Shown piece after piece: positions 1 through 63,717 of a stretch of 64,000 nucleotides of DNA. Where the stretch lies: positions 186,001 through 250,000 of the forward strand of contig WHVD01000105.1 in NCBI GenBank assembly GCA_015178975.1. The letters run 5' to 3'. The position numbers and the translations under genes were made by a program. The notes beneath the pieces were generated by a model. The model had not been told where the DNA came from, ran no database searches, and worked only from the letters and a program-made list of their open reading frames with translations. The number at the start of each line of letters is the position of its first letter. The stretch's first letter is position 1. This stretch comes from Hysterangium stoloniferum (taxonomy: Eukaryota; Basidiomycota; Agaricomycetes; Hysterangiales; Hysterangiaceae).

Positions 1-108
1 GTTAGTTGGGATAGCATGAATCCAGTCATTGAATACCAAACAAGCAACACCCGCAGCTCACTAATCCATGCAGAGGGGTCAGATTCACGTAATCTTCAAC
101 ATGTTTGT

Positions 109-940
109 TCAATCTCCTGATTGGCTATCATGAGGCACAACCTCTGGAATGCAAGGAGGAACCTTGAAAACGTACAGCGACTGGGCTGGGCGCATTCTAT
201 TAAGTATTTTCCTCCATTCGAAACCTCCCCTCGATCCTGGAGCGCCTCGCTCCCATGGGATCAGATTTGAGGACAAAGACAAGGCGAATATTGCAAAAAA
301 GGTCAACCAGTATCCAAAGGCACTTGTGAGAGCGCTATAAGGTATAACTGATGCGTAGCGATACAGCAGACATGCGAGGAAGCCAGAGGCCATGACCACT
401 TGATAGCCAACGGGTGTAAATTTGGTATAGCAAGCCTACCGAATGACACACCTGTATATCCCCGATATTCAGTGACCGCGGCTTGAAGGAGGAAAATGAA
501 GAGGAAGAAGCCCCAAGCACACAGGATGTCTTGAAGAAGACGAATCATCGGTAAATTGGTATTTGATTCGGGCCGCTCATGGAAGGAAGGCCTCGTAATC
601 TGGAATGCGCGCTTGGACATGGTGTAGGGTCTGGAACAGCCTGGAGCATCCCAGATAGCCGTTCTTCCTCCGAGCGCCTGAAACCATTGTAGTGATGAGT
701 CTTCCAATCGAACAAGTCTTTTATTTTATTTAAAGGGAACCCTTTTGAGCACCTGGCTGGACTGGTGCTGCTATTACCACAAACAGGCAACTGAATGAAA
801 CATGATGTCGTCATTATCGAGGTGAATACGGTTTTCAGCGTCCGAGCACGTTTTGCCATCTCTGACCCACCTTTGTACGATTCCTGGCGATTCAGAGTTC
901 TCGTTAGTATGTATCTAAGGTTCGTTGGCCTCATCACGTG
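109..940 (-). pseudogene. Family B membrane-protein gene, copy B1 (decayed N-terminus)
   Basis: Unknown family. The last two exons are clear: one runs 707 to 440, then a 41-nt GT..AG intron (439-399), then 398 to 109. The joined frame gives a soluble N-terminal part, a hydrophobic stretch (IRLLQDILCAWGFFLFIFLL), and after the intron two more hydrophobic segments (ASGFLACLLY and YWLTFFAIFALSLSS). The tail contains IPWERGAP and PPCIPEV, which recur in other B copies. Upstream of 707 the frame is closed by a TAA, where the 17.2-18.1 kb copy has a tyrosine codon, so this copy is probably inactive. The gene reads away from the A copy at 1968, and a TATATATA run near 996-1003 is a candidate promoter. 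Function unknown. Confidence 0.5.
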
Positions 941-993
941 GGTTTAAAATGACTATACTCCAGGTTAGATTCCCAGCCACTCTTGAATTGACA

Positions 994-1005
994 AAGATAT
1001 ATATA
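994..1005 (-). promoter_or_regulatory. TATA-like element upstream of B1
   Basis: A TATATATA run lies about 55 nt upstream of the first in-frame ATG of the B1 region, in the shared space between divergent B and A. Assignment is by position and motif only. Confidence 0.3.
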
Positions 1006-1409
1006 CAAAATGCCGGCCAGGCACGTCAAGTGAGATACCCAGCTGTCAGCTTCTGAACTTGCATATAATAATCAAGTTAATTATGTACTAATACACATAC
1101 ATCAGCAAGTTTCAAAGCATTAAAAAATATGTCCTCTTTACACAATTTATTAACAAAAATAGGTAGAAACATGAAAATGCCACGATCAGCCAGACGGGCA
1201 GGATATTACATATGATGTTTTCATCATGAACCTTGCAGGTCCAGGACGTGAAATGAGGAGCAAAACCATGATACCATTCAACCATATGAGGGGTTCCCCA
1301 TTACTCCGCTCACACGGACCGGGTAATACTAATTCTAGCGTGTACTTAATTATGAATATAGATTACATGCACAATTTGCTAATGAAAACCTGACGGACTC
1401 GCCACAAAC

Positions 1410-1920
1410 AGGCATATTTACTTTCTACGCCAATTATCCCAAGTAAAGAATTATTAAAATGGGATACTCGTTGGAATTCTGAAATAATTGAACACGAAGC
1501 GGATGCTTCAGCTAAATATAGCCAGAGTGGCGGGGCTGTACCTGAGAAGCGCTGTCATGGATAGCATCCACTGCATTTACATATTCTATCAATTGACATG
1601 TCACTTCTCAACTAACGTAAGAGATTAATTCCCAAAAATCTAGCGCTCGAGAAGTCGGAAGTTGCCACAATATGCGGTGAAAGTTCATCGAACTATTCAT
1701 AACTGCCACATCTACTCTCCGCCGTAGACAATCTGTTGAATACCAAGGAATTGGTGTATACCATAGTGAGAGAACTTGAGACAATCCTGGAGCATGTATT
1801 AATGAAGGAGGTTGAGGTTTGAGGTTGTGTAAAAAGAAGGGATGAATAGCTGGGTATCCTGTACAAAGCACCGCCACAATGCGATACCTTGAAATTTATT
1901 CCCTTGATAACTGTAACTTA
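1410..1920 (+). other. Conserved coding-like segment upstream of gene A
   Basis: Most A copies carry a homologous ~500-bp segment just upstream. In the better copies (31352-31074, 35022-34834, 13045-13239, 58426-58380) a shared frame reads roughly SERIEHEADVSVRYSPSG, then CIYIFYQ, STNVKAELP, EVATLCGE, LPYV, DLLKSKELVYTIVSELESIL and MKEVERLQVV. It could be an older exon of A or a third gene relic. Here it is closed by TAA in the VKAELP region (GTAAGAGATTAATTC). The copy before the intact A gene at 19024 is closed too, so it is not needed for the A reading frame starting at Met-Ser-Thr-Ser-Asn. Confidence 0.4.
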
Positions 1921-1967
1921 AAAGCGCAGCATCCCCTTCCGGTATCACAACCACCTGCTACCCACCA

Positions 1968-3947
1968 ATGTCGACTTCAAACGAGAGGACGCTGAGCAGC
2001 AACGATGTCGTACGGGCTGAAAGCCTCCTACAAGAAGTTGAGTGGCTACAACCCTTGGTCTCCCCAGCTGCATTGAGCGCAGAAGAACGGGAAGAGAGAT
2101 TTGACGCGGTGGGAAGGGAAATATTCCGGGTAAAGCTTCGAGACCAATGGAACTGTATCGAAGATGGGCATGGCGTGTGTTATCGAGGTCCCGAAGACGA
2201 CGAGCATATACCACTGTCTGAAGAAGACGTGGAAGTTTGGGTTGACGAATGGGTGCGCACAATACAATAGCCTTTCATGTACACTGTTGAAAAACTGGAC
2301 GCTTTTAGTGCCTAGGAGAAGCACATTGTCATGACCCACCGACTATAATTAAAATGCGAGGTAGATCCACCAACACGACATCGAACATGAACCCATATTG
2401 CAGTCATCATGAGATCCACTGGGGAGTGGTTTCACGGGCTGATAGCTCGTCTTCAAGTGTTGAAATTAGCCCCGGGTATTACCTAGGTGTTGGCATGGAC
2501 AGGATTGGGATGGGCGTGCTTCACAGCGCACAGAGAGCTTTGCTGATGGCAAAGTTGACGATATACGGGGGAATGGCCCGTGGATATGGAAGCAACAAGG
2601 CTTTTAACAAGTGTCTAGAGAAGTATCTCACTCTTCCAAGACTTGGAATGGTAATTCAAGAGACCATCGATTTGATGAAGTAGGGATACAACCGCGTCAA
2701 CCATTGATTACTCAACATACTCACGTCTTTCTAGACCCACCTATCCCCTTCGAATTAGACAACAGGCGTGGGTGGTCTTACGGGAGTGGACGTTCTTACA
2801 CCGAATGCGTTATTCAAGTGGTATACAGCGGAGAAACCGAGTTCACACTGCCAAGCTTATGACATATTTGGCTTGGGCCTTCCTCTGGTGTCCCGGCGCT
2901 CGATGGTCAGATGTAGATCGGCGATCAACTTCAATTACGTCTTCCCTTTACAAGGCTGTCATCAGATCACCACTACACACCAACGTGGATGAGGCTGCGT
3001 CCACATTCATTGTACAAATCGCCGAATATCATTCATTATCTTTTCCTTCTCCAAATTTCATCACCAGTGGCCTTGGGTATATCGTGGAACACATCTCCCA
3101 CGTGCGTCAATTGTCTGCAGTGGAGCTCGCTGCGATCAGAGTTTACATTGAATTCTGGTTAAAACCGTGCGTCGCGACATCACATTATTGCATCCTGCCC
3201 ACCAAAACCAGAACAGACAAAATTACTCACACCGAATTTCCTCGTTTGAATCTCCTATAAGGATTCTCGTGTGTTGCATCCACCAAGATTCCTGGTTTCG
3301 AAATATTGCTAGAGATTTATTGAAGCTTATTGTAGACGACGCAAGCCTCCATATAGCAACATTGACACTTCATATCGATGAGAACATGTCAGATTCACTT
3401 GTTCACCGTATCTGCGACCTAGAAACCTTCTTCGATGACAGCACGCTTCTCAGGCATCATATCAACCAGCTGAATGTGGTTTCTTCGCTCATTGAACCCC
3501 TCCTAAGGTATGTTGACAATGTTTGACATTGAAGCACAATCTCATATCCGCCCATTCAAATATCCTACCAGTCTGATTATGACACACACGAGTGAAACCT
3601 TTTCTCTCCTCTTTTCAGGCAGGAAAATAATCCAGGTCACTCTGAAGCTGATAGCTGCATCTCCCGACATCGAATCCGCGTGTACCATAGTGCGCAGCCT
3701 CAATATAATCGACATTCTCGCTCGTCTTCTTCCACATTGTGACCCAATGCATGGCTCAATCAACGGTCGATACTTCGTTACCGACCTTGAACAGTTTTAC
3801 CTCGTGTCGCATTCCTTCCTTTGTGTCATCGCCACACCTTTCACCGGTGTGTGCGTATCGTCTCATTCAAGCTCCCGATCCGTGTTGGAGAATCATGGTT
3901 GGTCTGCCGATGCTCTTCTTCCATCCACTACGCACAACATATCATAA
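1968..3947 (+). CDS. Family A gene, intact copy A1 (584 aa, five exons)
   Basis: Unknown family. Exons are 1968-2252, 2309-2679, 2735-3166, 3217-3507 and 3572-3947. All introns are GT..AG (56, 55, 50 and 64 nt), and the exon sum of 1,755 nt is a multiple of three with no internal stop. Exon 1 (95 aa) is acidic and holds LLQEVEWLQPLVSP, then C-x3-D-x-H-x2-C around residues 62-70, the position of the C-x2-H-x-H-x2-C motif of sister copies. Exon 2 has CLGEAHCHDPP, a serine run and a helical stretch (QRALLMAKLTIY). Exons 3-5 look all-helical, ending HNIS. There is no signal peptide or membrane segment, so it is probably cytosolic or nuclear. It is divergent from B1. The ATG has a CACCAATGT context shared by all copies. 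ARM/HEAT-like folding is a guess. Confidence 0.75.
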
Positions 3948-4099
3948 TTTCTCCTTGGTAACACCGACACATTGTCCACCCAGGAGGAAGAATACTACTA
4001 TTACTCTTCAGTTAACTCCCCTTTGGCAATATTTCCAATTTATGTAAAGATACATAGTTTGAGGGCATTCAAAAGCGCATATAGTCACTTTTACTTTGT

Positions 4100-4640
4100 G
4101 TGCTTCACAGCTTCTCGTTGATTCTATACATACATTGCATATATTGGTAGGCGTTAGTGGTGGCTAGAATCACATCCAATTTATCAAGGAGAATCAGTTC
4201 AAATAGAATACGACTCGGAGCTTTCAAAGAATGCAGCGTATCAGTTAGTTGAGATAGCAGGAAGCACGAGCATCTATTGCCATCTTTCACCCACCATTGC
4301 ACGATTTCTGGGCATTCTGAGTTCTCGTCATTATGTATCTAAGCATAGTAGGTCTCATCAGGTCAGTTACAAGCGACTATAATCCAATTTAGACCACCAG
4401 CTGCTCTTTAAATGACAATGATATAGACAAAAATCCGGGTCTGGCAGTGCAATGAGATACCCAGCTTTCAACTATGAACTTGCATATAATAATCTATGTA
4501 ATTATGTACTAATACACAAACCAGCATGCTTCAAACATTAAAATACATCCACTGTACACAAATATATTAACAAAACTAGGGCGATAGAAACATGAAAATA
4601 CAACGATAAGTGACGCAGGCAAGATATTACATATACCTTT
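4100..4640 (-). pseudogene. Family B fragment with B/A intergenic flank (copy B2)
   Basis: Homologous to the 3' flank, N-terminal part and upstream flank of B1 (compare 760-1250). The C-terminal membrane exons are missing. The shared stretch includes the 'cattatgtatctaag' block and the 'acttgcatataataatc' block. No open frame remains. Confidence 0.4.
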
Positions 4641-4744
4641 TTCATAATGAACCTTGAAGGTGCAGGAAGGGAAACGAGGAGCATAACCATGACAACATTT
4701 AACCATATCGGGGTTTCCGTCATGATCCAAGTTTCTGGGAAAAG

Positions 4745-6298: not shown

Positions 6299-8057
6299 TC
6301 ATAATACTATCCCTCCTGGTTTGGATTGTGTATTGGTGTTATCCAAGAGAAATTGGGCTGGCGCAATGGATGGAACAAGAGCATCGGCACGCCAATCATG
6401 GTCTTCCAACACTGATCTGCAGTTTGAATTAAATGTTAGGCACACACCAGTGAAAGGTGTGGCGATGACACAAAGGAAGGAATGGGCCGCGACAGTTACG
6501 CGTTTAAGGCAGCGACCGAGGTATTGATCGTTGATTGAACCCCGCATTGCGTCACAATGTGGAAGAAGACGAGAGAGAATGGGGATGATATTGAGGCTGC
6601 GCACTATGGTACACATGGATTCGATGTCGGAAGATCCAGCTATCAGCTTCAGGGTAACCTTGATAAGTTTCTCCTCTGACGAGAGGTGGAGGAGCCAGAT
6701 ATTTTGATTCGTGTGTGTCGTAATCAGACTGGTAGGATATTTGAATGAGCGGATATGAGATTATGCTTGAAGGTCAAACATTGTCAACATACCTTAGGAG
6801 GGGTTCAATGAGCGAAGAAACCACATTCAGCTGGTTGATATGATCCTTGCGAAGCGTGCTGTCGTCGAAGAAGGTTTCTAGGTCGTAGATATGGTGCGAA
6901 AGTGAATATGACATGTTCTCATCGATATGAAGTGTCAATGTTGCTATTTGGAGGCTTGCTTATATGGTGCGAAAGTGAATATGACATGTTCTCATCGATA
7001 TGAAGTGTCAATGTTGCTATTTGGAGGCTTGCTTCGTCTAAAATAACCTTCAATGCATATGCAGCGATATTTAGAAACCAGGAATCTTGGTGGATGCAGC
7101 ACACGAGAATCCTTATAGGAGATTCAAACAAGGAAATTCGGTGTGAGTAATTTTGTCTGTTCTGGTTTTGGTGGGCAGGATGCAATAATGTGATGTCGCG
7201 ACGCACGGTTTTAACCAGAATTCAATGTAAACTGATCACAGCGAGCTCCACTGCAGACAGTTGACGCACGTGGGAGACTTGTTCCACGATATACCAAAGG
7301 CGATTGGTGAGGAAAATTGGAGGAGGAAAACATGATGAATAATATTTGGCGATTTGTACAATGAATGTGGACGCAGCCTCATCCACGTTGGTGTGTAGCG
7401 GTGATTTGATCACAGCATTGTAAAGCGATGACCTAATTGAAGTTGATCGCCGATCTACATCTGACCATCCAGCGCCGGGACACCAGAGGAAGGCCCAAGC
7501 CAAATATATCATAAGCTTGGCAGTGTGAGCTCCGTTTCTCCGCTGTATACCACTTGAATAATATATCCGTTGTAAGGACGTACACTCCCATAGGACCACC
7601 CACGCCTGTTGTCTAATTCGAAGAGGATAGGTGGGGCTAGAAAGACGTGAGTATGTTGAGTAATCAATGGTTGACGCGGTTGTATCCCTACTTGATCAAA
7701 TCAATGGTCTCTTGTATTACCATTCCCATTCTTGGCAGAGTGAGATACTTCTGTAGACACTTGTCAAACGCCTTGTTCCTTCCATATCCACGGGCTATTC
7801 CCCCGTATATCATCAACTTTGCCATAAACGAAGCTCTCTGTGCACTGTAAAGCACTTTCATCCCAATCCTGTCCATGCCCACTCCTAGGTAATACCCGGG
7901 GCTAAGTTCAACACTTGAACACGAGCTATCAGCCCGTGAAACAACTCCCCAGTCGATGTTCTGATGACTGCAATATGGTCTCATGTCCGATGTCGTGTTG
8001 GTGGATCTACCATTTTAATTATAGTCGGTGGGTCATGACAATGTGCTTCTCCTAGGT
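6299..8057 (-). pseudogene. Family A copy A3, lacking exon 1 and frameshifted
   Basis: Near-identical inverted partner of A1 exons 2-5. Exon 2 starts at 8057 and runs to about 7690, and exon 3 ends near 7207. Exon 1 is gone: at about 8058 exon 2 abuts a B fragment. A perfect 73-bp tandem duplication in exon 4 (6889-6961 and 6962-7034) shifts the frame. The last exon keeps VRSLNIIPILSRLLPHCDAM. It cannot make the family protein. Confidence 0.65.
6889..7034. repeat. 73-bp direct tandem duplication inside A3 exon 4
   Basis: Two identical 73-bp copies sit head to tail (6889-6961, 6962-7034). No other A copy has the second one, so it is a local event. The length is not a multiple of three, so the exon frame is broken. 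Confidence 0.85.
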
Positions 8058-8625: not shown

Positions 8626-8883
8626 TGATACCCTGCTTTCTGTGAAACGTCTGATGGTCATTTCAACGTGCGTATAGCATCAACGAGAAGCTTCCAGGAA
8701 CACAAAGGCGGTCAAAAGTGACTATATGCACTGTATGTAGCTTTACATAAATGAGAAATATAGCCACAAGGCGAGTGAAGGAAAGTGTAATAGTACTATC
8801 CTTCCTCCTCGTTCGTATAGTGTATCAGTGCTATCCAAGAGACATTATGCGTGCGGAACGGATGGAAAAACAGCATATGCACG

Positions 8884-10744
8884 CTAGTCATGGTCTTCCA
8901 ACACTAATCTGGATGTTGAATTGCATGGTACGCACAGACCGGTGAAAGGTGTGGCGATGGCACAAAGGAAGGAATGAGTCGCGACAGTTACTCTTTCAAG
9001 GGAAGCACCGAGGTTTTGATCGGTGATTGAGCCGCGCATTGCGTCACAAAGTGGAAGAAGACGGGAGAGAATGGGGATGATATTGAGGTTGCACACTGTG
9101 GTACACGTGGAATTGATGTCGTAAGACGCAGCTCTCAACTTCAGAGTGACGTCAATTAGTCATTTCTCTAACCACAGGAACCACGAATTTGGACACATGC
9201 GTGTCAGAATCAGACTGGCAGGATATTTTGATGGGGCGGGAATCAGATGATGGTGGAAGGGAAAGAATCTCAACATACCTTAGGAGGGGCTCAACGAGTG
9301 AAGAAACTACATTCAGCTGGTTTATATGATCCATGCGGGGTGTCCTGTCATCGAAGAAGGTTTCTAGGGAAAATATATCGCGCCACAGTGAATGTGACGT
9401 GTTCTCATCGATGTGAAATGTCAAGGACGCTATATCTAACTTTATGTCGTCCACTACAACTTTCAATACATCACCAGCAATATTTCGAAACCAGGCATCT
9501 TGGTGGATGCAACATAAGAGAAGCTGTATAGGAGACTCATAGAAGGAAAGTCGGTGTGGGAAATTTTTCTATTGTGGTGTTGGTGGGCAGGATGAAAGGA
9601 TGTGATGTCGCGACGCTCGGTTGTACCCAGAATTCAATGAAACCTCTAATCGCAGTGAGCTCCAATACAGACAGTTGACGCACGTGACAAGTCATGTCCA
9701 CGATAACCGCAAGGTGCTTAAGGAGGAAGGGAGGTGGATTGCATGGGGATGATAAATATCGGGCGATTTGAAGAATAAGTGTCGATTCAACCTCATTAAA
9801 GTGTAGCGGTGATTTTATGACAGCATTGTAAAGTGAAGACGTAATTGCACCTGATCGCCGATCTACATCCGACGATGGAGCGCCGGGACGCCAGAGGAAA
9901 GCCGAACCCAAAGATACTATCAGTTTGTCAGTGTGTCCTCCCCCTAATACCACTGATGCCTGTTCTCAAATTCGGAGCGGGTATATGGGTCTACGAACAT
10001 TGAGTAAGTATGTCCGGTGTTTAATGATTGCCATGTTGTGGCCTACCTCATCAAATCAATACTCTCTTGAATGAATATTCCCAGTATTTGCAGCGGAATA
10101 TACTTTTGTAGAAGCTTGTTAAAGCCCTTGTCGTCTCCGTATCCACGCGCCATTCGCTTGTATAGCGTCAACTTTGCCATCAGCGAAACCTTCTTTGCGT
10201 TGAACAGCACTTTCATTCCAATCCTTCCCAAACCGACTCCTAAGAAATATCCTGGGGAAATTTTAATACTTGAAGATGAGCTATCAGGAAGTGAGCCCCC
10301 TCCCCAGTCGATATTATGGCTCTGATATGCACCGAGATTTGATGTCGTGTTGGTGGACCCCCCTCGCATCTTAATAATTGTCGGGGGGTCATGGTAATTT
10401 CTCTCTCCTTGGCACTGAAAGCATGAGGTTTGTCAAGAGTGCATGTAAGAAACATATTTCATTTTGCACACCCATTCTTCCACCCAAACTTCCACGTCTT
10501 CTTCAGACAGTAGTATGTGCTCGTCGTCTTCAGGTGCTCGGTAACATAAACCTTGCCCATGTTCCAGACAGCTCCATGGTTCTCGAAGTTTCATCTGGAA
10601 TATTTCCCTCATTCTCGTTTCATTGATATCCTGTCGTTCTACCCTCAATATAGCCGGTGAAACCAAGGGTTGTAGCCACTCAACCCCTTGTAGGAGTGGT
10701 ATTATATGTTGCCTGTTCACAGTTATCTCGTTGGAAGTTGACAT
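8884..10744 (-). pseudogene. Family A copy A4 (nonsense codon and lost splice donor)
   Basis: Exon 1 (10744-10460) is open for 95 aa and reads CLEHGQGLC at the Cys/His motif. Exon 2 (10414-10047, 368 nt) is open. Exon 3 starts at 9990 but has TGA at 9968-9966, where other copies have CGA, and lacks about 13 codons of its front. The donor of intron 3 is GA instead of GT (9618-9617). Exon 5 reads NLNIIPILSRLLPLCDAM and ends early at 8884. Every damaged site is a small change in an otherwise full-length copy, so loss of function looks recent. Confidence 0.7.
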
Positions 10745-12870: not shown

Positions 12871-12879
12871 TCGTGACCT

Positions 12880-13590: not shown

Positions 13591-15503
13591 ATGTCAACTT
13601 CCAACGAGATAGCTCCGAGTGGGCAGGATGTCCTATCCCTCCTCCAAGAGGTTGACTGGCTACAACCCTTGGTCCCCTGGCTGTATTGAGGATGGAGCGA
13701 CAGGAGATTGATGACACGGGAAAGAGGGAAATATCCCGGATGAAGCTTCGAAAGCGATGTAGCGGTCTCGAACATGGACACTGTTAATGTTACCGAGCAC
13801 GTGATGACAACCAGCACATAGAACTGTTGGAAGAAGACGTGGAAGTTAGTGTGGAGGAATGGGTGTGCAAACGAAACGTCCTTTTTATGGAGACTGTTCA
13901 CATACCGGATGTTTTCAGTGGCAAGGAGAGGGAAATTGCCATGACCCACTGAATAATATTCAAATTCGACCGAGCTCCACCAACGCCACATCCAAACTCA
14001 ACCCATATCGTAGGCGTGCCATAGACTGGGGAGTTGGCTCATCGCCGGATAGCTCATCATCCAGTCTGGAAATTAGCCCGGGGTATTACTGTGGAGTCGG
14101 TTTGGAAAGGGTTGGGAGGACTCAGCTGCACTGATGGCAAGGTTGATGGTATACAAGCGAATGGTGTACGGACACGACAGGGCGTTTAAAAAGTTAATAC
14201 GCAAGCATCTCACTCCGAGAAGAATAGGAATAGTAATTCAAGAGACCATTGACTTAATGAGGTGGGGATACTTCAGCGCCAATCATTGAATACACTCAAA
14301 ATCCTCATCATTATAGACCCACTTACCCGCGTCAAATTCGACAAAAGGCGTCACTTGTCTCAGACCTGTTCTGGGATTGTTATGTTTTAAAGCGGAGGAA
14401 CGACGGTCGGCTTATGACATATTTGGGTTCGGCCTTCAATTTGTGTCCCGGCGCTCGATGGTACGATCGAGATCGGACATCAACTGCAATTACGTCTTCG
14501 CTTTACAATGCGGTCATCAAATCACAGCTACACACCAACCTGAATGAGGTTGCGTCGGCATTAATTCTACAAATCACCGGATATTTATCATGCCCATGCC
14601 ATTCACGTACCTACCTCCTCGCCGACCTTGGGGATATCGTGAAACAAACTTGCCACGTCCGTCAACTGTCTGTAGAGGAGCTCACTGCGATTAGAGGTTG
14701 CATTGAATTCTGGGTACAACCGTGCGTCGCGACATCACATCATTGCATCTGGCCCACCAAAACCACAACAGACAGAATTGCTCACATCGACATTCCTTGT
14801 TTGGATCTCCTATGCAGCTTCTGGTGTGTTGCATGCACGAGGATGTCTGGTTTCGAGATGTTGCTGGAGATGTATTGAAGGTTATAGTGGCTGACACAAA
14901 CCACCATATAGCGTCCTTGACTCTTATTATGGACATGGAACACAACGGATTCATTGTGGTATGGTATCTCGGAGCTGAAAACCTTCTTCGGCAACATAAC
15001 GCTTCACATGCATCACATCAAACAACTGAATGTGGTCCCTTCACTCATTGAGCCCCTCCTACGGTATGTTGATAGTGGTTTAACTTCCAGCATCATCTAA
15101 TATCCGCGCTTGAAAATATCATACCAGTCTGATTATGACACACCCAAGTCAAAATGAGTACCTCCTCTCGTCAGGAGACAAACTAATTGAGGTCACTCTG
15201 AACCTGATCACTGGATCTTCCGACATCGAATCCGCGTGTAGCACAGTGCGCAACCTGGATATAATTGCCATTCTCCCTCGTCTTATCCCACGTTGTGACA
15301 CAATACGTGGCTCACTCAACGATAAATACCTCGTTTACTGGCTTGAAGCATTAACCCTCGCGGCTCAGTCCTTCCTTTGTGTCATCACCACACCTTTCAC
15401 CGGTGTGTGCGTAACATCTAATTCAAACTCCAGATCAGTGTTGGAGTACCATGGATGGCCTTCCAATTCTCTTGCACCATCCATTCCGTCCGATATTTCA
15501 TAA
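13591..15503 (+). pseudogene. Family A copy A6 (frameshifted exon 1, later exons largely open)
   Basis: The ATG at 13591 is in the usual context, but a 1-nt deletion before VSPA brings TGA at 13687-13689. Exon 2 remains recognisable (SSSSLEISPGYYCGVGLERVG near 14050) but also loses frame. Exon 3 from about 14318 and its long frame at 14414 give TSTAITSSLYNAVIKSQLHTN. The 50-nt intron 3 is kept near 14724-14773. Exon 5 runs open to the stop at 15503 (NLDIIAILPRLIPRCDTI, ending PSDIS). Confidence 0.65.
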
Positions 15504-19023: not shown

Positions 19024-20939
19024 ATGTCAACTTCAAACGAGACGACTCCGAGCAGCCACGATCTCATACGGCCTGAAAGCCTCCTACAAGAGGTCGAGTG
19101 GCTACAACCACTGGTCTCCCCAGCAACATTGAGCTCAGAGGAACGGGAAGAGATCATTGACGCGGGGATAAGGGAACGATTGAGGATAAGGCTTCGAGAC
19201 CGATGGAGCTGTATCCAACATGGGCACGGATTGTGTTATCGAGTTCCCGAAGATGACCAGCATATACCACTATCTAAACAAGATGTGGAAGTTTGGGTTG
19301 AGGAATGGGTGCGCAAAAATGAGATAGCCTTTCATGTACACTGTTAACAACTGGACGTTTTCAGTGGTTAGGAGAGAGTAATTGTCATGACCCTCCGACT
19401 ATTATAAACACGCGAGGTAGATCCACCGACAGGACATCGAACCGCAGTCCATATCGCAGTCATGATAACATAGACTGGGGAGTGGTTTCGCTGGCTGGTA
19501 GCTCGTCTTCGAGTGTTGAAATTACCCCCGGGTATTATTTAGGAGTTTTCATGGATAGGGTTGGCATGAAAGTGCTTTATCGCGCAAGGAGAGTTTTGCT
19601 GATGGCAAAGTTGACGATATACCAGCGAATATCACGGAGATATAGCTTCAACAAGTTTCTGCAGAAGTATATTACACTTCCAAGATTGGGAATAATAATT
19701 CAAGAGAGCGTTGATTTAATGAGGTACGGGTACAACAGCCTCAATCATTGAATACACTCAAAATATTGACGTCTTTCTAGACCCACTTATCCCCTTCGAA
19801 TTCGAAAGCAGGCGTCGAGGGTCATGATGATGTTGTGGGCTGGAAATTATGGACCATGGAGGAAAGAACGCCACACTGAAAGTCTTATGATATCTTTGAG
19901 TGGGTTCTTCTGGTGTCCCGGCCCTGATGTGAGTCAGCCACCGACTGCAATTGCGTCATCACTTTACAATGCTGTCATCAAATCACCGCTACACACCAAC
20001 CTGGATGAGGTTGCGTCGACATTCCTTCTACAAACCGCACGATATTTGTCATGCCATCAATATCTCTTCCTCGTTAACGACCTTGTGTATATCGTGGAAA
20101 ACATCAGCCACGTGCGTCGACTGTCAGTAGTGGAGCTCACTGAGATCAGAGGTTGCATTGAATTCTGGGTACAACCGTGCGTCGCAACATCACATCACTT
20201 CATCCTGCCCACCAAAACCATAACAGACAAAATTACCCATACGGACTTTCCTTTCCTATACAGCTTCTCGTGTGTTGCATTCACCAAGATGCCTGGTTTC
20301 GAGATATTGCTGGAGATGTATTAAAAGTTGTGGTGGATAATATGAACATGAATATCACCTCATTGACACTTCATATCGACGAGGACACATCATCTGTACT
20401 GTGGGAGGGTTCCTGGGCCCTGACCACCTTCTTCGGCGACAAGACGCTTCGCATGGATCATATCAAGCAGCTGGATATGGTTTCTTCGCTCATTGAGCGC
20501 CTCCTAAGGTATGGTGAGAATGGTTTACCTTCCAGCATCATCTCATATCTACCCATGATGAATATACCTTACTAGTCTGATTATGACGCACACGAGTCCA
20601 AATTCGATGGTCCTCATGTCAGGCGAGGGACTAATAGAGGTCACTCTGAAGCTGATAGCTGGTTCTTCTGACATCGAATCCGCGTGTACCACAATGCGCA
20701 GACTCAATATCATCCCCATTCTTGCTCGTCTTCTTCCACATTGTGACGCAATGCGCCGCTCAATCAATGATCAATACCTCAGTTACCGCCTTGAAGGAGT
20801 AGCCCTCGCAGCTCATTCATTGCTCTGTGTCATCACCACACCTTTCACCGGTGTGTGCGTAACATCTAATTCAAACGCCAGATCAGTGCTGGAAGACCAT
20901 GACTGGCCTGCCGATCCATCCATGCCGCACCATATATAA
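19024..20939 (+). CDS. Family A gene, intact copy A8 (561 aa, five exons)
   Basis: Best reference copy. Exons are 19024-19308, 19365-19723, 19781-20176, 20227-20508 and 20576-20939. Introns of 56, 57, 50 and 67 nt are all GT..AG, in phases 0, 2, 2 and 2. The exon sum of 1,686 nt is divisible by three with no internal stop. Exon 1 carries LLQEVEWLQPLVSPATLSSE, the motif CIQHGHGLCYRVPEDDQHIP (C-x2-H-x-H-x2-C, a possible metal site) and VEVWVEEW. Exon 2 has SSSSSVEITPGYYLGVFMDR and LPRLGIIIQESVDLM. Exon 3 has ASSLYNAVIKSPLHTN, exon 4 AWFRDIAGDVLKVVVDN and LDMVSSLIERLLR, and exon 5 EVTLKLIAGSSDIESACTTM and LNIIPILARLLPHCDAM. The helical, repeat-rich look suggests a solenoid, but I recognise no family. 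Confidence 0.8.
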
Positions 20940-22077: not shown

Positions 22078-23935
22078 ATGTCAATGTCCAACGAGATAAC
22101 TCTGAGCCGGCAGGATATCATATCCCTCCTATGAGAGTTTGAGCGGGTACAGACCTTGGTTTCCCCGGCTGTATCGAGTTTAGAACAACAGGCGATCAAT
22201 GACACGAGAATGAGGGAAATATTCCAGATGAAGCTCGCAGAACGATGTAGCTGCCTCGAACATGGGGACTGCGTATGTTACCGAGTACCCGATGACGACC
22301 AGCACATGCCATTGTCTGAAAAAGACGCGGAAGTTTGTGTGGAGGAATGGGTGCGTAAAGCGAAATGTCCTTTTTATGTACACTGTTCACGAACCGGATG
22401 TTTTCAGCGTCAAGGAGAGAGAAATTGCGATGACCCACCGAATAATATTAAGATACGAGGGAGACCGACCACCGCTACATACAAACTCAGTCCATCTCGG
22501 AGGCATGGCATAGACTGGGGAGTCGTTTCAACACCGGATAGCTCATCTTCAAGTGTGGGAGTTAGCCACGGGTATTACTGTGGAGTCGGTTTGGAAGATG
22601 TCGGGATGAAAGTCCTTGACAGGGCAAAGAAAGCTTCACTGATGACAAAGTTGATGATATATGAGCGAATGACGCGAGGACCATGGGAAGGAGAGGATGT
22701 CGTTGACAAGTTTCTACTAAGGCATGTCACACCGCCATGACTGGGAATAATAATTCAAGAGAGCGTTAATATAATGAGGTAGGGATCACACAGTGTCAAT
22801 CAGTGAATACACTCACAATACTCACGTCTTATAGACCCACTTACCCGCCTCGAATTCGCAAACAGGCGTCAGTGGTATTAGGGGGGTTCTGGAATTAGAG
22901 TGATATCCGTTGGGCGAACCAAGGTCAGCTATGACATATCTGGCTTGGGCCTGCAATTGGTGTCCCGGCGCTCGATGGCCAGATAGAGATCGGACATCAA
23001 CTACAATTACGTCATCGCTTTACAATAGTTTAATCAAATCACCGTTACACACCAACTTGGATGAGGTTGCATCAACATTTATCACACAGATCGCATGATG
23101 TTTGTCATCCGATTACCAAACCTTACTCGCTGCCGGCCTTAGCAATATCGTGGAAAATATCTGCCATGTTCGTCAGCTGTCTGTACAGGAGCTCACCACG
23201 TTCAGATATTACTTTGAATGCTGGTTACAACGGTGCGTCGCACGATCACATCTTATCACCATGTTCACGACAACCATAAAAGACAAACTCGCCAGGGAGG
23301 ACGACGCTTTGATGTTTATCTTATACAGCCTTTCTTGCGGTGCATATACCAAGATGCGTGGTTTCTAGATATTGCTAGTGATGTATTGAAGGCCATAGTG
23401 GATGACGCGAACATCCATATAGCATCATTGACACTTTATATCAACGAGGACACCTCACATTCACTGTGGCGCTATATCTGGGCCCAGAAAACCTTCTTCG
23501 TGGACAGCACGCTTCGCACGAAGCATATCAACCAGCTTCATGTAGTTTCTTCGTTGAGTGCCCCCCTTCTACGGTATGTGAGCAATATTTTACTTATCAT
23601 CATCGTCTCACACCCACTCATGGAACTATCTTACCAGTCTGACTCTGACACACGTGGCCAAATTGGCCGCTCCCAGAGTCTAGCAAGGGACTAATAGAAG
23701 TCACCCTGAAGCTGATAGCTGGGTCTTCCGACACTGAATCCGCTTGTACCACAGTCTGCAGCCTCAATATTATCTCCTTCTCGCTCGTTTCCTTCCACAT
23801 TGTGACACAATGCGCCGGATCCCCACACCATTCACAGGCGTATCGGGAACGTCTAATTCAAACTCCACATCAGTGTTGAACAATCATGGCTCGCCCGTCG
23901 AAGGTCTTGTTCCATGACATATAATCAGTTCTCTG
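22078..23935 (+). pseudogene. Family A copy A10 (two nonsense codons)
   Basis: Full-length copy with ATG at 22078. Exon 1 has TGA at 22132-22134, where others read Gln (LLQEVEW). Exon 2 has TGA at 22738-22740 in the LPRLG motif (AGA to TGA). Otherwise the Cys/His motif (CLEHGDCVCYR), the intron 1 boundaries, exon 3 (TSTTITSSLYNSLIKSPLHTN) and exon 4 (LWRYIWAQKTFFVDSTL) are kept. Exon 5 has lost frame after ESACTTV. Intron 1 is 57 nt with no stop, so it happens to read through. Confidence 0.65.
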
Positions 23936-27703: not shown

Positions 27704-28023
27704 TGTACACTGGGTACAGAAAAATATTTTCTCTTACGCACCCATTCCTCGACCCAACCTTCCACGTCTTCTTCAGACGATGGTATGTGCTGGTCGTCAT
27801 CGGGTGCTCGGTAACATAAACAGTCCACGTGTTGGAGACAGCTACATGGTTCTCCAAGCTTCATCCGGAATATTTCCCTCATTCCCGTGTCATTGATCTC
27901 CTGGCGTTCCAAACTCAATATAGCCGGGGAAACCAAGGGTTGCAGCCACTCAACCTCTTGTAGGAGGCGTTCAGCCCGTCCGATATCGTGGCTGCTCAGA
28001 GTGGTCGCATTTGAAGTTGACAT
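27704..28023 (-). pseudogene. Family A fragment A12 (exon 1 only)
   Basis: Exon 1 is intact for 95 aa (28023-27739: RLLQEVEWLQPLVSPAILSL, CLQHVDCLCYRAPDDDQHIP, WVEEW) with a good GT donor, but intron 1 is cut after about 35 nt at the joint with A11. A tail-to-tail inversion has removed exons 2-5. Confidence 0.7.
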
Positions 28024-29040: not shown

Positions 29041-29145
29041 CCAGTTAGAGGTAGGGGCTACTGACACGCCGGTAAAGGGTGTGGCGATGACGGAAAGGAG
29101 GGAATGACACATGAGGTGGAATCTCTCAAAGGGATTATGGGGGGA

Positions 29146-32290: not shown

Positions 32291-32589
32291 TCGCGCTGCT
32301 TTCTTTAAGAACTCCGAGGATATTCCATTTGACGTTAGTTTTTTTTCGTAAATCGCATGTGATTCTAGCCACTACTAGGGACCACGACTATGTGCAACTA
32401 CGTGTGGATAGGATCAGAAATAAGCTACAAAGCAGAAAAGGTGACTATATGCGCTCTTTAATTGGCTAAAATTATGTAGCTTTAAAGAACTTTGAAATAT
32501 TGCCAAAGGCGGATTAAGTAAACAGTGATAGCACTATCCTTCCTCCTAGCTCGGATAATGTGTCGGTGTATCCAAGGGACATTATTGTA

Positions 32590-48330: not shown

Positions 48331-48574
48331 TCAACCATTGAACATGACATATCCAGTCAATGGTATAGCTACAGTAGTTGAACTACATACATTAGTCTAC
48401 ATAAAGGAATTATTGAGCTATTTACAGAGAATTAGTTCTGCATTAAATACATCGAAATTAAACACAAGCGCTTTGTGTTGTGTGGCATGAAGGTGAAATA
48501 GAACTTGTAAGACTGAAGACACAGCAGGTGTGCTTCGTATCGATCTGCATGAACACATGACAAAACTTGTATTT
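48331..48574. other. Unassigned DNA between RMD5 relic and LINE 3' end
   Basis: May contain a further decayed RMD5 exon on the minus strand, but no family motif can be read. Nothing else is seen. Confidence 0.2.
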
Positions 48575-52402: not shown

Positions 52403-54281
52403 ATGTCCACTTCAAACGAAACGACTCTGAGCAGCCACGATTTCGTACGGGCTGAAAGCCTCTTACACGAGGTGGAGTGTCTACAACCTTTGGTCTCCCC
52501 AGCTGAATTGAGCTCAGGAGGACGGGATGAGAGAATTGACGCGGCGATAAGGGAAAGATTCCAGGTAAAGCTTCGAGACCAATGGAGCTGTATCGAACAT
52601 GGGCACGGTGTGTGTTTTCGAGGTCCCAACGACGACCAGCATATACGACTCTCTGCAGAAGATGTGGAAGTTTGGGCTGAGGCATGGGTGCGCAAATTGG
52701 ATAGCCTTTAATGCATACTGTTGAAAACTGGACGCTTTCAGTGGCTAGGAGAGACGAATTGTCATGATCCACCGACTATTATTACTATGCGATGTAGATT
52801 CACCAAAGGCACATCCAGCCTCAGTCCATATTACAGTCATGACGTGGACTGGGGAGTGCTCTCACCGTATGGGGGCTCATCGAGATCTTCAAGTGTTGAA
52901 ATTAGCCCCGGGTATTATTGTGGAGTCGGTTTGGAAAGGGTTGGGATGAATGTGCTTTTCAACGCAAAGAAAGCTTCACTGATGGCAAAGTTGATGATAT
53001 ACAAGCGAATGGCATATGGAGACAACAGGACCTTCAACAAATTCATACACAAGCATCTCACTCTGCCGAGACTCGGAATAGTAATTCAAGAGACCATTGA
53101 CTTAATGAGGTGGGAATACTTCAGAGCCAATCATTGAATACACGTAAAACTATTCACGTATTTATAGACCCGTTTACCCCCGTCGAATTCGAGAACAGGC
53201 GTGGGTAGTCCTGGAGCGGCTCGGGTATTCAAGTGTCATACAGCGGGGGAACGGAGGACACACTGCCAAGCTTATGGCAAATTTGGGTTCGGCCTTCTAC
53301 TGGTGTCCTGGCGTTCGATCGTCAGATGTAGATCTGGCATCGACGACAATGACGTCATCGCTTTACAATGCTATTATGAAATCACCGCTACACACCAATC
53401 TGGATGAGGTTGCATCGACATTCATTCTACAAATCGCCGGATATTTATCATCCTTTTCTCAGCCGACCGTCCTCCTCGGGAACCTTCGCAATATTGTAGA
53501 AAACATCTGCCAAGTGCGCCAAATGTCTGTAGAGGAGCTCACTGCGATCAGAGGTTGCATTGAATTCTGGGTACAACCGTGCGTCGCGAGATCACATCAT
53601 TTCATCCTGCTCACCAAAGCCACAACAGACAGAATTATCCACACCGACATTCGCTGTATGGCTCTCATATACAGCTTCTCGTGTGCTGCATGCACCAAGA
53701 TGCCTGGCTTCGCGATCTTGCTGGAGATGTATTGAATGTTGTAGTGGAGGACACACATCTCAACATAGCGTCCTTGACGCTTCATATGGATGAGGTCACG
53801 TCCCATTCAATATGGTGTTACATCTGCGACCTGAAAACCCTCTTCGACGACAGCACGCTTCCCACGGATCATATCAACCAGGTGAATGCGGTGTCCTCGC
53901 TCATTGAGCCCCTCCTAAGGTATGTTGACAATGTTTTACTTTCAAGCATACTCTCATATCTGACCATTCAAATATCCTCCCAGTCTGATGCAGACACACA
54001 CAAGTCTAAATTTCTGGCTCCTCTGGTCAGGCAAGGAACTAATTGAGGTTACTCTGAAGCTGTTAGCTGCCTCTTCCGACGTCGAATCCGCATGTACCAC
54101 AGTGCGCAGCCTCAATATCATCCCCATTATCGCTTGTCTTCTTCTACATTGGGACGCAATGGGCGGCTCAACCAATGATCAATACCTCTGTGCCGAGCTC
54201 GAACGATTAACCCTTGCGGCTCATTCCTTCCTTTGTGTTATCGCCACACCTTTCACCCGTGTGTGCGTAACAACTAATTAA
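52403..54281 (+). CDS. Family A gene A17 (550 aa, last ~20 residues lost)
   Basis: Exons are 52403-52687, 52742-53109, 53168-53578, 53629-53919 and 53984-54281, with introns of 54, 58, 50 and 64 nt (GT..AG). The sum of 1,653 nt is divisible by three, without internal stops. Exon 1 has CIEHGHGVCFRGPNDDQHIR. Exon 2 has the SSRSSSVEISPGYYCGVGLE stretch. Exon 5 reads VRSLNIIPIIACLLLHWDAM and FLCVIATPFTRVCVTTN, then TAA from a small deletion where others continue with NSRSVLEDHDW. Likely still functional. The flank upstream carries two insertions (51284 and 51925). Confidence 0.7.
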
Positions 54282-56307: not shown

Positions 56308-58257
56308 TTATGCGTACGGAATGGACGGAAGAAGGGCATCGGCAGGCCAGTAATGGTGCTCTAAAGCGGATCGGGACTTTGAATTAGATGTTGCGCACAC
56401 ACCGGTGAAAGGTGTGGCGATGACATAAAGGAAGGAATGAGCCACGAGGGTTAGTCTTTTAAGGTAGCGACCGAGGGGTTGATCGTTGATTGAGGAGCGC
56501 ATTGCGTCACAATGTGGAAGAAGACGAGAGAACATGGTGATCATATCGAGGCTGCGCACTGTGGTACATGCGGATTCGATGTCGGAAGATCCACCTATCA
56601 GGTTCAGAGTGATCTTAATATGTTGCTCGCCTGACCAGAGGAGCCACGAATTTGGACTCGTGTGCGTCAGAATCAGACAGATTGGATAGTTTCATGGGCA
56701 TATATGAGACGATTATGGAAGGTAAACCATTTTCAACATACCATAGGAGCGGCTCAATGAAAGAAGAAACAACATTCAGCTGGTTTATGTGATCGCTGCT
56801 GAGCGTGCTGTCCTTGAAGAAGGTTTGCAGGGCCCAGATATCATGCTGCAGTGAATACGATGTGTCCTCATCGATATTCACACTCGAGGACGTTATATGG
56901 AGGGCTGTTTCGTCCACTATACCCTTCAAAACATCTCCAGCAATGTCTCGAAACCAGGGATCTTGGTGCATACAACATACGAGAAGCTGTATCGGAGATT
57001 CATACAAAAGACCTCGGTGGGGGGATTTTGTCTGTTGTGGTTTGGTGGGCAGGATGAAAGGATGTTATATCGCGACGCATGGTTGTAACCAAAATTCAAT
57101 ACAACCTCTGATCGCAGTGAGCTCCTCTACAGACAATTGCTGCACGTGGCTGACCAATTTCATAATATCCCCAAGGTCGCCGAGGAGAACGGTACTTTTA
57201 GACAAGGATGATAAATATCCGGCGATTTTTACGATAAATGTCGACGCAACGTCATCAAGGTTGGTGTGTAACGGTGATTCGATGACCGCATTGTAAAGCG
57301 ATGACGTAATTGCAGTTGATGGTCGATCTACATCTGACAATCGAGCTCCAGGACAAAATAGTAAGGTAAAACCTAAACAAGTCATCAGTTTTGCAGTGTG
57401 ACCGTCCCCCCTCCACTGTTAAACACTTGAAAACCAGAACCCATCTAAGACCACTGACGCCTGGTGTCGAATCCTAGACGGGTAAGTTGTTCTACAAAAA
57501 CATGAGTGTTTTGAGTGTATTCAATGATTGACGGTGCTTTATCCCTACCTCATCAAATCAACGCTCTCTTGAATTATTCTTCCCAGTCTTGGCGGCGTAA
57601 GATACTTCTGTAAAAACTTGCTAAAGTGCTTGTCATTTCCATATGCACGTGCTATTCTCTCGTATATCGTCAACTTTGCCATCAGCGCAGCATTCTTTGC
57701 GGTGAAAAGCACTTTCATCCCAACCTTTTACAACCCGACTCCTAAGTAATATCCTGGGCCAATTTCAATACTTGAAGATGAGCTATCAGCCAGGGAGCCC
57801 ACTTTCCAGCCGATTTTATGGCTACGATATGGACTGATGTTTGATGTCGTGTTGGTGGATCTTCCTCGTGTTTTAATAATACTTGGTGGGTCATGTCAAT
57901 TTCTCTCTCTTTGACACTGAAAATATTTGTTGTTAACAGTGTACATTTGACAGGAAATTTCATGTTGCGCACCCATTTCTCCACCCACACTTCGACTTCT
58001 TCTTCAGACAGTGGTATGTGCTGGGCCTCTTCAGCTTCTCGGTAACATAAACCGTGCCCATGTTCGGGACAGCTCCATCGTTGTCGAAGCTTCACCCGGA
58101 ATCTCTCCTTTATGCACGCCTAAATTATCTCCTCCCGTTCTTCTGCGTTCAATGCAGCTGGGGAAACCAAGGGTTTGAGCCACTCAACCTCTTGTAGGAG
58201 AGTCTCATCAGGTACGATATCGTGTCTGCTCAGAGTCGTCTCGTTTGACGTTGACAT
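56308..58257 (-). pseudogene. Family A copy A18 (nonsense in exon 1)
   Basis: ATG at 58257, but TAG at 58122-58120 closes exon 1 after 45 codons (ALNAEEREEII then stop). Downstream the Cys/His motif is CPEHGHGLCYREAEEAQHIP. Exon 3 (57385 region) is open as STAITSSLYNAVIESPLHTN, with YLSSLSKSTVLLGDLGDIM following. Exon 4 (57007 region) is open to LNVVSSFIEPLLW. The last exon ends near 56308 with LDMITMFSRLLPHCDAM. An internal start at the MKLRQRW methionine is conceivable but unlikely. Confidence 0.6.
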
Positions 58258-60590: not shown

Positions 60591-61981
60591 TTTCTTTTTG
60601 ATCCCGCAGGCACATGTCATCCAAACTAGAAGGAGGAATAGTATTATTGCTTTTCAATTAACTCGGTTTGTAACAGGATCTGTCTAACCCACATAACTTG
60701 AGCCAATTTAAGAGCGCATACAGTCATATGGTACCATCACCCCGTGCTTTCAGCTTCTCCTTAATGACATTCATATGCAGAATAATATTGACGAACGTTA
60801 GTTTGACTCCCGATTTATTAACAACAATTATTTCAAATAGAACACCACTGGAAGGTCTCAAAGACAGCCACGCCACTGTTATGCACATGTGCCTTAGTTA
60901 GGATAGCACCAAGCAAGCCATTGACGAAAAACACAGGACATCGGCCATAATAATTCCAATCCAACTACCAATCACCCAGCTCTGTCATCGAAGAATCATT
61001 CGGCTCTGCTCTCTTCCCCCGTCACGCCTTCTTCATCCTATCCTTCGAAAAGCCGCCATTGGGATTAAATCTCATGAAGCCCCAAATATATGACCTCCTG
61101 GAGACGCTCCCTATTGGGCAGACACCGACACCGGGGGAAACTATAGCTGCGATCAGAGTTCATCTGCCATGATGCAGGAAATTCATCACATGTGTCGATG
61201 CGCCAGAGGAGGCTGCCATAATTACAATTCATGATCTGTCGTCACATCTTCGCGTCACCCAAACGAGTCCCTGATAGATAACGTGAGCCTGGGGCGAATT
61301 ATTCTACTCATAAGGACCGGGTAATAAAAATACTGGCGTGTATTAATTAGGACTGAACATAGACTACATGCATGATTTATTAATGAAAATCTGACGGACT
61401 GGCCACAGACAGGCATATTCACTTTCAATGCTAATTAGCCTAAGTAAAGAATTATTAAAATGGGATGCTCGTTGGACTTCTGAAAGAATTGAATGCGAAG
61501 CGGATGTTTCCGTGAGATATAGCCGAGTGGACAGCGCCCGAGGCTGTACCTGAGAAGCACTGTCATGGATAGCATCCACTAAATTTATATTCTATCAATG
61601 GAGATGTCACTTTTCAACTAGCGTAGAAGCTGAATTGCGCAAAGATATAGCGCTCAAGAAGTCGTAAGTTGCCACATTATGCGGTGAAGGCTCATCAAAC
61701 TATTCGTAGGTGTCATATGTGCCCTCTGCCGTAGACGATCCGTAGACGATTTGTTGAAGAGCAAGAAATTATACATAGTGAGTGAACTTGAGAGTATCCT
61801 GGAGCGTGTGTACATGAAGGAGGTTGAACAGCTTCAAGTCGTGTAACAGGAAGGGAAGAAACGCTGTGTACGCTGCATAAAACACCGCCACAATGCTATA
61901 CCTTGGGATTCATGCTCCTGATAACTGCAACTTACAAGCGCAGCATCCCCTTCCGGTATCACAACAACCTGCTACCCACCA
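60591..61981 (+). other. A19 3' flank, unmatched block, and A20 upstream flank
   Basis: 60591-60920 is the A 3' spacer. 60920-61230 is unmatched. 61230-61981 is the A upstream flank, including the coding-like segment with several stops and a small duplication ('cgtagacgatc' twice at 61731-61750). No intact gene. Confidence 0.35.
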
Positions 61982-62705
61982 ATGTCAATTTCAAACGAAG
62001 CGACTCTGAGCAGCGACGATGTCGAAGAGGCTGAAAGTCTCCTACAAGAGGTTGAGTGGCTACAACCCTTGGTCTCCCCAGCTGCAATGATCTCAGTAGA
62101 AGGGGAGGAGGGAGTTGATGCGGCGATAAGGGAAAGATTCCGGGTAAGGCTTCGAGACCGATGGAGCTGTATCGAACATGGGCACGGTGTGTGTTATCGA
62201 GTTCCCGAAGACGACCAGCATATACCACTGTCTGCCGAAGATGTAGGTTTGGGCTGAGAAATGGGTGCGCCACATGGGATAGCATTTAATGCGTACTATT
62301 GACAAACTGGACGCTTTCAGTGGCTAGGAGAGACAAATTGTCATGATCCACCGATTATTCTTAAAATGCGAGGTAGATCCACCACCGCCACATCCAACCT
62401 CAGTCCGCATTATAGTCATGACGTGGACTGGACTGGGGAGTGGGTTCACTGTATGAGAGCTCGTCGACATCTTCAAGTATTAAAATTGAGCCGGGGTATT
62501 ACTGTGGAGTCGTGTTGGAAAGCGTTGGGAAGACTGCTGTGCTTTACAGTGCAAAGACAGCTGCACTGGTGGCAAAGTTGATGCTATACGAGCGAATGGT
62601 GTATGCAAACGACAAGGCCTGCCTTCAATTGGTGTCTCAGCGCTCGATGGGCAGATAGAGATCGGACATCAAGTGCAATTACGTCATCGCTTTACAATGA
62701 TTTAA
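61982..62705 (+). pseudogene. Family A copy A20 (frameshift in exon 1, then chimeric)
   Basis: Exon 1 is open through CIEHGHGVCYRVPEDDQHIP but loses 2 nt at DVEVW, giving a stop near 62257. Exon 2 (from about 62328) is well kept (SLYESSSTSSSIKIEPGYYC) to about 62620. It then jumps to an exon 3 scrap (LVSQRSMGR, then TLYNDLIKS-like) ending at about 62712. Confidence 0.6.
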
Positions 62706-63717
62706 TCAAATCACTGTGTGGAGGAATGGGTGCGTAAAAAGAAATGCCATTTTTATGTACACTGTTCACAGACAGGATGTGTTCAGTCCCAAGGAGACAA
62801 ATTGCCATGAACCACCGAATAATATCAAAGGATGAGGGAGATCCACAACGCCACATGGATACTGTAAGGTTCGGCTTTTAAGATAGCGTAATCCTTCGGT
62901 TTGAGGGTCTTACGAAGAGGAACTAACAGAGTAGGAATAGGCTCCAATTCGAAATAACTGCTGTAGCTAATGGGTGGCTTCCCTATTTATGCTAACATTC
63001 GTAGACTAAACCCCCTAACGACAGATAATAGAAATGAAACAGTGTAATGATCGGAAAATTATCTACACTCTCTTTACCCCCTGAGACAACGGCGGTAGAC
63101 CGCTCCGTGCCAAGTCCGCCACCAGGTCCGCTCCCGTTACAGATACTTAGTCCATCTCACACGCATGACATGGCCTGGGGAGTCGTCTCATCGCCGGATA
63201 GCTCATCGTCCAGTGTGTAAATTAGCCCTGAGTATTCCTGTGGAGTCAGTTTGGAAAGCATTGGGATGAAAGTGCTTTACAGAGCAAAGAAAGCTTCGCT
63301 AATAACAAAATTGATGATATACGAAAGAATGACGTGTGGACCACGGGAAGGCCATAACTCGTTGACATGTTTCTCCTCAGGTCTGTCACTCCGCCACAAC
63401 TGGGAATAATCGTTCAAGAGAGCGTTGATCTAATGAGGCAGGGATAACACAGCATCAATCAGTGAATACACGTACAATCCTCACGTTTTTCTAGACCCAC
63501 TTACCCCCCTCGAATTCTACAACAGGCGTCAGTGGTATTAGGGGGGATCTGGAATTCGAGTGATATGCAGTGGACAAACCATGGCTTGGGCCTTCAATTG
63601 GTGTCCCGGCGCTCGATGGGCAGATAGAGATCGGACATCGACTGCAAATACGTCATCGCTTTAATCAAATCACCGCCACACACCAACTTGGATGAGGTTG
63701 CATCAACATTAGATGAC
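62706..63717 (+). pseudogene. Family A fragment A21, split by a solo LTR
   Basis: Starts with the very end of exon 1 ('gtgtggaggaatgg', then the GTGCGT donor) and intron 1. Exon 2 begins at about 62792, is interrupted by the 279-bp LTR (62863-63141) and resumes (YLVHLTHDMAWGVV-like, SSVSPD). Exon 3 is a partly deleted remnant that breaks off at 63717 inside VDEVAST. Confidence 0.55.
62863..63141 (+). mobile_element. Solo LTR (279 bp) with target duplication GATAC
   Basis: Starts TGTAAGGTTCGG and ends CCCGTTACA (TG..CA, inverted TGTAA/TTACA), flanked by GATAC at 62858-62862 and 63142-63146. The TGTAAGG start is shared with the 439-bp LTR at 39098, but the bodies differ. Confidence 0.85.

Follow-up and report, generated by a model that had tools for sequence, protein, structure and literature searches.

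Higher-Order Arrays of a Spliced Orphan Gene in Hysterangium stoloniferum: Frame Conservation, Gene Conversion and a Possible Recognition Repertoire

The Array and Gene A

The stretch considered here, called the window throughout, comprises 64,000 nucleotides (positions 186001-250000 of contig C8) of the 111-Mb, 554-contig assembly of Hysterangium stoloniferum, an ectomycorrhizal member of the Phallomycetidae whose genome was reported in PMC7550596. It holds an array of a gene designated A, accompanied in places by a sequence designated B, and an earlier sequence-only reading had taken the two for a pair of protein-coding genes. A is a genuine spliced gene family, with five exons and GT-AG introns, and its copies may form a repertoire of recognition proteins. 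The first copy, on the forward strand, has its exons at 1968-2252, 2309-2679, 2735-3166, 3217-3507 and 3572-3947, which splice into an open frame of 584 amino acids. The five-exon structure proposed earlier thus held, with a correction to two acceptors that is borne out by this translation and by the deposited models P0003-P0007, with which the starts of exons 4 and 5 agree when compared by eye.

The estimate of about 21 A copies in both orientations was likewise upheld, as a tblastn search with the copy at 1968-3947 returned 21 copies or pieces on both strands (matches clustered by eye, with a 78-bp match at 15804-15881 left uncounted). The start exon is kept in 14 of them and all five exons in 10. 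Twelve longer copies were modelled, 11 of them with exons projected from copy 1; two are open, two have a single defect and eight are more damaged. The second intact copy (19024..20939, +) is 79% identical to copy 1 in nucleotides and encodes 561 amino acids, with no frameshift and a stop after codon 561. The near-intact copies are at 28972..30938 (-), with one early stop at codon 521, and at 52403..54278 (+), with a late frameshift and a stop near codon 550. Broken copies lie at 8851..10744 (-), 13591..15500 (+), 22078..23914 (+), 26090..27750 (+, with large deletions), 32588..34515 (-), 35977..37879 (+) and 56323..58257 (-), and a copy that has no exon 1 (6368..8055, -) adjoins an inverted piece of B. 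Three truncated copies (59612-60444, 61982-62713 and 63164-63711, all +) and pieces at 4766-5286 (+), 12601-12875 (+), 16045-17043 (+), 21729-22014 (+), 27742-28023 (-) and 38994-39707 (+) complete the set found by tblastn.

Copy 1 belongs to a tandem unit of 4266 bp (1..4266, +) that consists of B-like sequence, an upstream spacer, A and a 3' flank, and that was compared with 20 other places on contigs C522, C8 and C106, where it is about 85-94% alike, complete or partial. These 20 loci were chosen from matches to B and are therefore uninformative on how often B stands beside A. The spacer includes a conserved region upstream of A (1311..1950, +), a putative promoter, which also adjoins A copies that have no B. 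Units of other types, about 75% identical to this one and about 4 kb long, adjoin it head to tail. The kilobase to the left of the unit is 85-96% alike in 18 of the 20 loci, and on the right flank 12 loci match one another at 88-97%, while a thirteenth (L028) matches those 12 at 72-75%. Since the left flanks are alike in 18 loci and right flanks are shared as well, the main array, as read from these alignments, has grown by duplication of multi-unit, multi-gene blocks, that is, as higher-order repeats. Truncated or stacked neighbouring A copies between 13591 and 23914 (e.g., 16045-17043 and 21729-22014) suggest repeated unequal exchange. An exact 73-bp tandem duplication was seen within a broken A copy, at 6889-7034.

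Selection on Gene A

Frame-breaking insertions and deletions (indels) were counted as distinct events in the unit loci and amount to 8.5 per kb in A exons, against 40.1 in B, 43.5 in intergenic DNA and 43.9 in the 3' flank (rate ratios of 4.7-5.1, p 3e-5 to 6e-10). Indel lengths in multiples of three make up 10 of 25 in A exons and 14 of 114 elsewhere (p 0.002). Nonsense changes account for 23 of 962 distinct exon substitutions where 4.1% were expected (p 0.003), and the splice dinucleotides are as expected at 66 of the 68 introns of 17 full-length unit copies. Five of these 17 have an open frame, among them L020, which has a non-standard intron-3 acceptor in the model used. Missense relative to silent change, observed over expected, stands at 1.05, and the counted ratio is 1.09 in the five open copies and 1.04 in eight, when three copies with one or two internal stops are added. 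To judge from these counts, the unit type of A keeps its frame although many copies are broken, and missense changes occur at about the frequency expected under neutrality.

The A type to the left of the unit behaves differently. In exon 5, all eight of its indels break the frame (16 rows), as against none of three in the unit type (17 rows; p 0.002), with nonsense at 5 of 104 (p 0.23) and a missense/silent ratio of 0.64. Because that ratio stands at 0.64 despite the frame-breaking indels, this type is, on the exon 5 comparison, damaged rather than simply neutral. The comparison used exon 5 alone, without L035 and L033, and omitted L022 and L031 for their differing left flank; a whole-exon table (90 indels per kb, nonsense 41 of 983, missense/silent 1.00) was discarded, as several rows fail to align in their 5' part and L035 aligns barely at all.

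Replacement relative to silent change varies along A (p 0.0475). The highest 40-codon windows are codons 243-282 with eight copies (scan-corrected p 0.0145) and 231-270 with 16 copies (p 0.0055); the lowest, at about codons 63-108, fails the scan (p 0.06-0.09). When five copies of four types, open or nearly so, are compared with one another, the ratio of replacement to silent divergence (dN/dS) is 0.58-0.76 overall and reaches 1.65 at codons 239-278, which also show the highest replacement divergence, with other windows at 0.42-0.89. The dN/dS sets omit the truncated units L018, L019, L025 and L033, and the 16-copy scan and the recombination test below also omit L034. Taken together, these values suggest positive selection on codons of about 231-282.

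Gene Conversion among Copies

The 16 full units provided 280 informative sites. Site incompatibility rises from 0.30 at less than 25 bp to about 0.50 at 400-1600 bp, and r2 drops from 0.175 to 0.07 with distance; for site pairs less than 100 bp apart, none of 500 permutations was as low in incompatibility. As both measures change with distance, short-tract exchange between paralogues follows, and on this reasoning A paralogues swap tracts of at most a few hundred bases over distances of up to 1.1 Mb and among three contigs.

The B-Like Sequence

B had been proposed as a membrane-protein gene, and this was not borne out. In the unit studied, B-like sequence (1..1253, -) is non-coding by frame and codon-periodicity tests. 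Its rate of frame-breaking indels does not differ from that of intergenic DNA (p 0.82), indel lengths in multiples of three number 2 of 32 as against 10 of 25 in A exons (p 0.003), and codon periodicity is not consistent. A coding B was thus rejected for this unit type, its consensus having been translated in all frames without a conserved frame emerging, and a Pfam scan of two B frames gave as its sole match a sub-threshold DUF4096 (E 0.18). Related pieces lie at 4267-4674 (-), 8061-8625 (+, the piece that adjoins the A copy lacking exon 1), 17180-17967 (-), 24247-25247 (-), 31509-31858 (+), 40065-40465 (-), 54652-55461 (-) and 55466-56054 (+), plus three pieces of less than 180 bp.

The supposed fixed divergent order of B and A also failed to hold up. 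Of the 14 A starts in the window, six have some part of the B core in divergent orientation in the 3 kb upstream of them, and for only four of the 14 is an upstream B piece at least 300 bp long. Beyond the main array, the B core is absent from four of the five dispersed A loci that were read (L037, for which about 1.6 kb of upstream sequence was available, L038, L040 and L041), and the fifth, L039 on contig C335, carries two pieces of B, of which one is divergent to another A copy that is itself partial. With no reading frame for B in this unit type and its core missing at four of five dispersed loci, the idea of a co-duplicated pair of proteins acting together is not supported. A dispersed transposon was also considered for B and found no support at the depth searched, as the 50 reported matches, with 40 of 294 candidates scored, were all on C522, C8, C106 and C149, to which the pieces on C335 are added. 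By these comparisons B is non-coding sequence carried along with the unit, and it may have had a coding role ancestrally.

The Protein and Its Relatives

The statement that A belongs to no recognised family was confirmed by a Pfam scan of A and six relatives. Protein searches for relatives, with about 8,000 candidates scored in each, gave 13, 17 and 21 matches, all of them hypothetical proteins of H. stoloniferum, and no account of the family was found in the Hysterangium literature that was searched. In the AlphaFold model, the N-terminal half is of low confidence and the C-terminal ARM/HEAT-like helical domain is mostly confident. A sequence search of solved structures gave one match at the level of chance (E 1.2), and a fold search with the N-terminal module gave 21 matches, the best with an E of 3.0. 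A likeness of this module to Cys/His motifs of other agaricomycete proteins was considered and dropped, as the protein search gave it no support. Pfam found no repeats in A, with no internal-repeat search made, and no secretion signal is obvious by eye at the N-terminus.

The extent of the family was assessed with a degenerate 29-base motif from a conserved stretch of exon 3. It has 15 matches in the window, where none are expected by chance, and 348 in the genome (164 forward, 184 reverse), where the reversed-pattern control gave none, so chance is ruled out. Among the matches listed, most are on C8 (8 to 296 kb), C106, C149 and C522 (from 10 kb), and a few others fall on C335, C90, C135 and C146. 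Contig C522 still carries A-like sequence at about 1.29 Mb (L042, L043). As the motif recovers 15 of the 21 window copies, the true number in the genome may, by extrapolation, be near 490. Protein searches found 27 deposited family proteins against the 348 motif matches, and annotation therefore probably hides most of the family.

Other types of A were also encountered. Long relatives with several repeats of the N-terminal Cys/His module (P0001, P0002, P0014 and P0020-P0024) were seen, with separate clusters of this form on C420 (442-585 kb), C539 (230-362 kb) and C198. A third type recurs on C162, C528 and C174, with copies some 10 kb apart, and the dispersed copies L038, L040 and L041 have long flanks in common, the main pieces being 79-93% alike over compared DNA that stops short of the copy ends. 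This spacing and these flanks indicate that there may be a larger duplicated or mobile unit around dispersed copies.

CpG Content and Surrounding Transposons

The ratio of observed to expected CpG is 0.80-0.91 in all 20 unit loci and 0.83-1.05 in all 10 chaperonin-gene loci, two of which are neighbours. Six reverse-transcriptase loci gave 0.02, 0.04, 0.60, 0.79, 1.08 and 1.29. The value for a Tc1-like element where the array ends is 0.02, and that for a transposon-like stretch in the window is 0.44. CpG-to-TpG mutation of transposons through methylation has been proposed for basidiomycetes (PMC4352252). The A array has not undergone the CpG decay of old transposons, a point that is supportive only, since the same holds for no fewer than two of the six transposon loci.

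The transposon-like stretch, which is not A, occupies about 40500-52000 of the window, with its low CpG taken over 41000-52000. Because of this low CpG and an RNase H fragment (49074-49490, -), it is read as transposon remains; it also includes an open reading frame that matches pirin below the threshold (46116-46709, +), as well as an 18-bp tandem repeat (41284-41570). Locus L043, from the far end of the array on C522, has an open Tc1/mariner-type transposase frame at 6823-7779 (HTH_Tnp_Tc3_2, DDE_3), and its CpG value of 0.02 was taken over L043 6501-8000. An Rfam scan of the window for structured RNA gave no matches.

Interpretation

The reading that we tentatively favour, as possible rather than probable, is that A is a diversifying repertoire of intracellular binding proteins engaged in recognition conflict, functionally like the NLR/het or killer families and not homologous to them. 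Intact A would be an intracellular binder with a small Cys/His-containing module at its N-terminus and a predicted ARM/HEAT-like helical domain at its C-terminus; duplication and gene conversion would assort and renew its binding surfaces, and the array could serve, for example, in self/non-self recognition after hyphal fusion or in the detection of parasites. Turnover, gene conversion and fast protein change fit binders in conflict. What the sequence-only reading had proposed as a fast-turnover soluble and membrane pair thus survives for A alone, with its kept frame, unreduced missense change, stretch of replacement excess and conversion, and is lost for B as its partner. A more ambitious version, which we consider unlikely, is a non-NLR fungal recognition repertoire with hundreds of copies of an orphan gene in megabase-scale arrays, where conversion among intact and dead copies would write new binding surfaces; such an array would define the individuality of nuclei or detect parasites, by analogy with antigen and receptor diversification. 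If the repertoire is real, this fungus would have a self/non-self or defence system with no relation to NLR and HET proteins, one that draws its variation from gene conversion and a reservoir of dead copies.

Several results weigh against this repertoire and bring in a serious rival, somewhat unlikely in our estimate, in which unequal exchange and gene conversion inflate a mostly neutral, satellite-like array of an orphan gene with few functional copies. Most of the longer A copies are broken, the block repeats resemble satellites, a type of A with frame-breaking indels has been amplified alongside, and the missense/silent ratio is close to 1 whether copies are open or broken (0.93 in nine broken copies, 0.90 in all 17). 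The introns (225 bp) hold just three frame-breaking indel lengths, below other non-coding DNA (p 0.014) and indistinguishable from exons (p 0.45), so the exon deficit may be partly regional or due to splicing. Codons 231-282 are equalled in replacement density by other C-terminal bins and are set apart by scarce silent changes, and gene conversion with relaxed selection can mimic part of a replacement excess. The near-equal ratio in broken copies, the scarcity of intron indels and a stretch that is not the densest in replacements all weaken the case for a repertoire. A neutral amplicon, in turn, has to contend with flanking DNA in which frame-breaking indels are about five times as common as in A exons of the unit type, with the depletion of nonsense and with a CpG content near that of genes. 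Even if the array is mostly neutral, it would present fungal higher-order repeats made of a spliced gene that have kept their CpGs, unlike old transposons of the same genome.

The gene conversion found among A paralogues would also suit a killer/antidote family, a meiotic driver or nuclear killer similar to wtf or Spok that spreads by killing spores or nuclei without copies, since wtf genes are reported to be marked by many dead copies, by nonallelic gene conversion and by fast change (PMC6526906). Such a family is decidedly unlikely here, with no kinship of A to a named family found, no known domain, and hundreds of copies against the 25-38 wtf genes per isolate given in that account. That A is cargo or part of a mobile element, which we hold very unlikely, would agree with related copies dispersed on many contigs, including the third type with its regular spacing, and with the shared flanks of L038, L040 and L041. 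Against this stand the head-to-tail junctions of the main units, the result that no transposition domain scored above the Pfam cut-off in A or its relatives, and an array that has escaped the CpG loss of old transposons, though so have two of the six reverse-transcriptase loci. Equally little probability is given to a dosage or symbiosis family, in which amplification would raise the expression of an intracellular protein or serve interaction with the ectomycorrhizal host. Ectomycorrhizal fungi, of which this species is one, are reported to have lineage-specific symbiosis-induced genes (PMC7550596); the N-terminus offers no obvious secretion signal to the eye, however, and amino-acid divergence between the copies speaks against pure dosage.

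Comparison with Known Systems

In higher-order-repeat satellites and ampliconic gene arrays, similar units are grouped in repeated blocks. The A array is similar in that its units, roughly 4 kb long and about 75% alike, form blocks repeated at about 90% identity, and it differs in that its units hold a spliced gene with a conserved frame. From transposable elements A is set apart by the fact that neither it nor its relatives have a transposition or retrotransposition domain above the Pfam cut-off. ARM/HEAT-repeat proteins such as SYS-1, beta-catenin, importins and WAPL resemble A in that its domain is predicted to be an all-helical superhelix; the likeness is one of prediction alone, with generic scores and no sequence match to solved structures.

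Fungal NLR/STAND proteins form large intracellular families whose C-terminal WD, ANK or TPR-type repeats are under positive selection, with a mean of 72 hits per agaricomycete and up to 274 in one species according to PMC4986451. A resembles them as a large family that is putatively intracellular; its predicted C-terminal helical domain and its stretch of replacement excess may or may not correspond to those selected repeats. The differences are that NACHT and NB-ARC are missing from A and the six relatives and an effector domain from A in the Pfam scans, that the replacement excess is confined to one stretch and that Pfam detects no repeat. The same genome has WD40 proteins with many high-scoring repeats and long open frames on contigs other than those of the A array (C24, C301, C416, C517, C535 and others, among the best 150 of 801 candidates), and these resemble fungal NLR-type receptors with conserved repeats.

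The wtf drivers of fission yeast are described as multi-exon, fast-evolving genes with pseudogenes and nonallelic gene conversion (PMC6526906), and A is likewise multi-exon and fast-changing, with broken copies and nonallelic conversion among 16 paralogues. Its copy number is far larger than that of wtf, and Pfam and protein searches, which included no direct comparison with driver sequences, found no kinship to wtf or Spok. By the defining features tested A is a member of neither group, and fungal NLRs may be regarded as its nearest functional analogue and the wtf drivers as its nearest evolutionary one.

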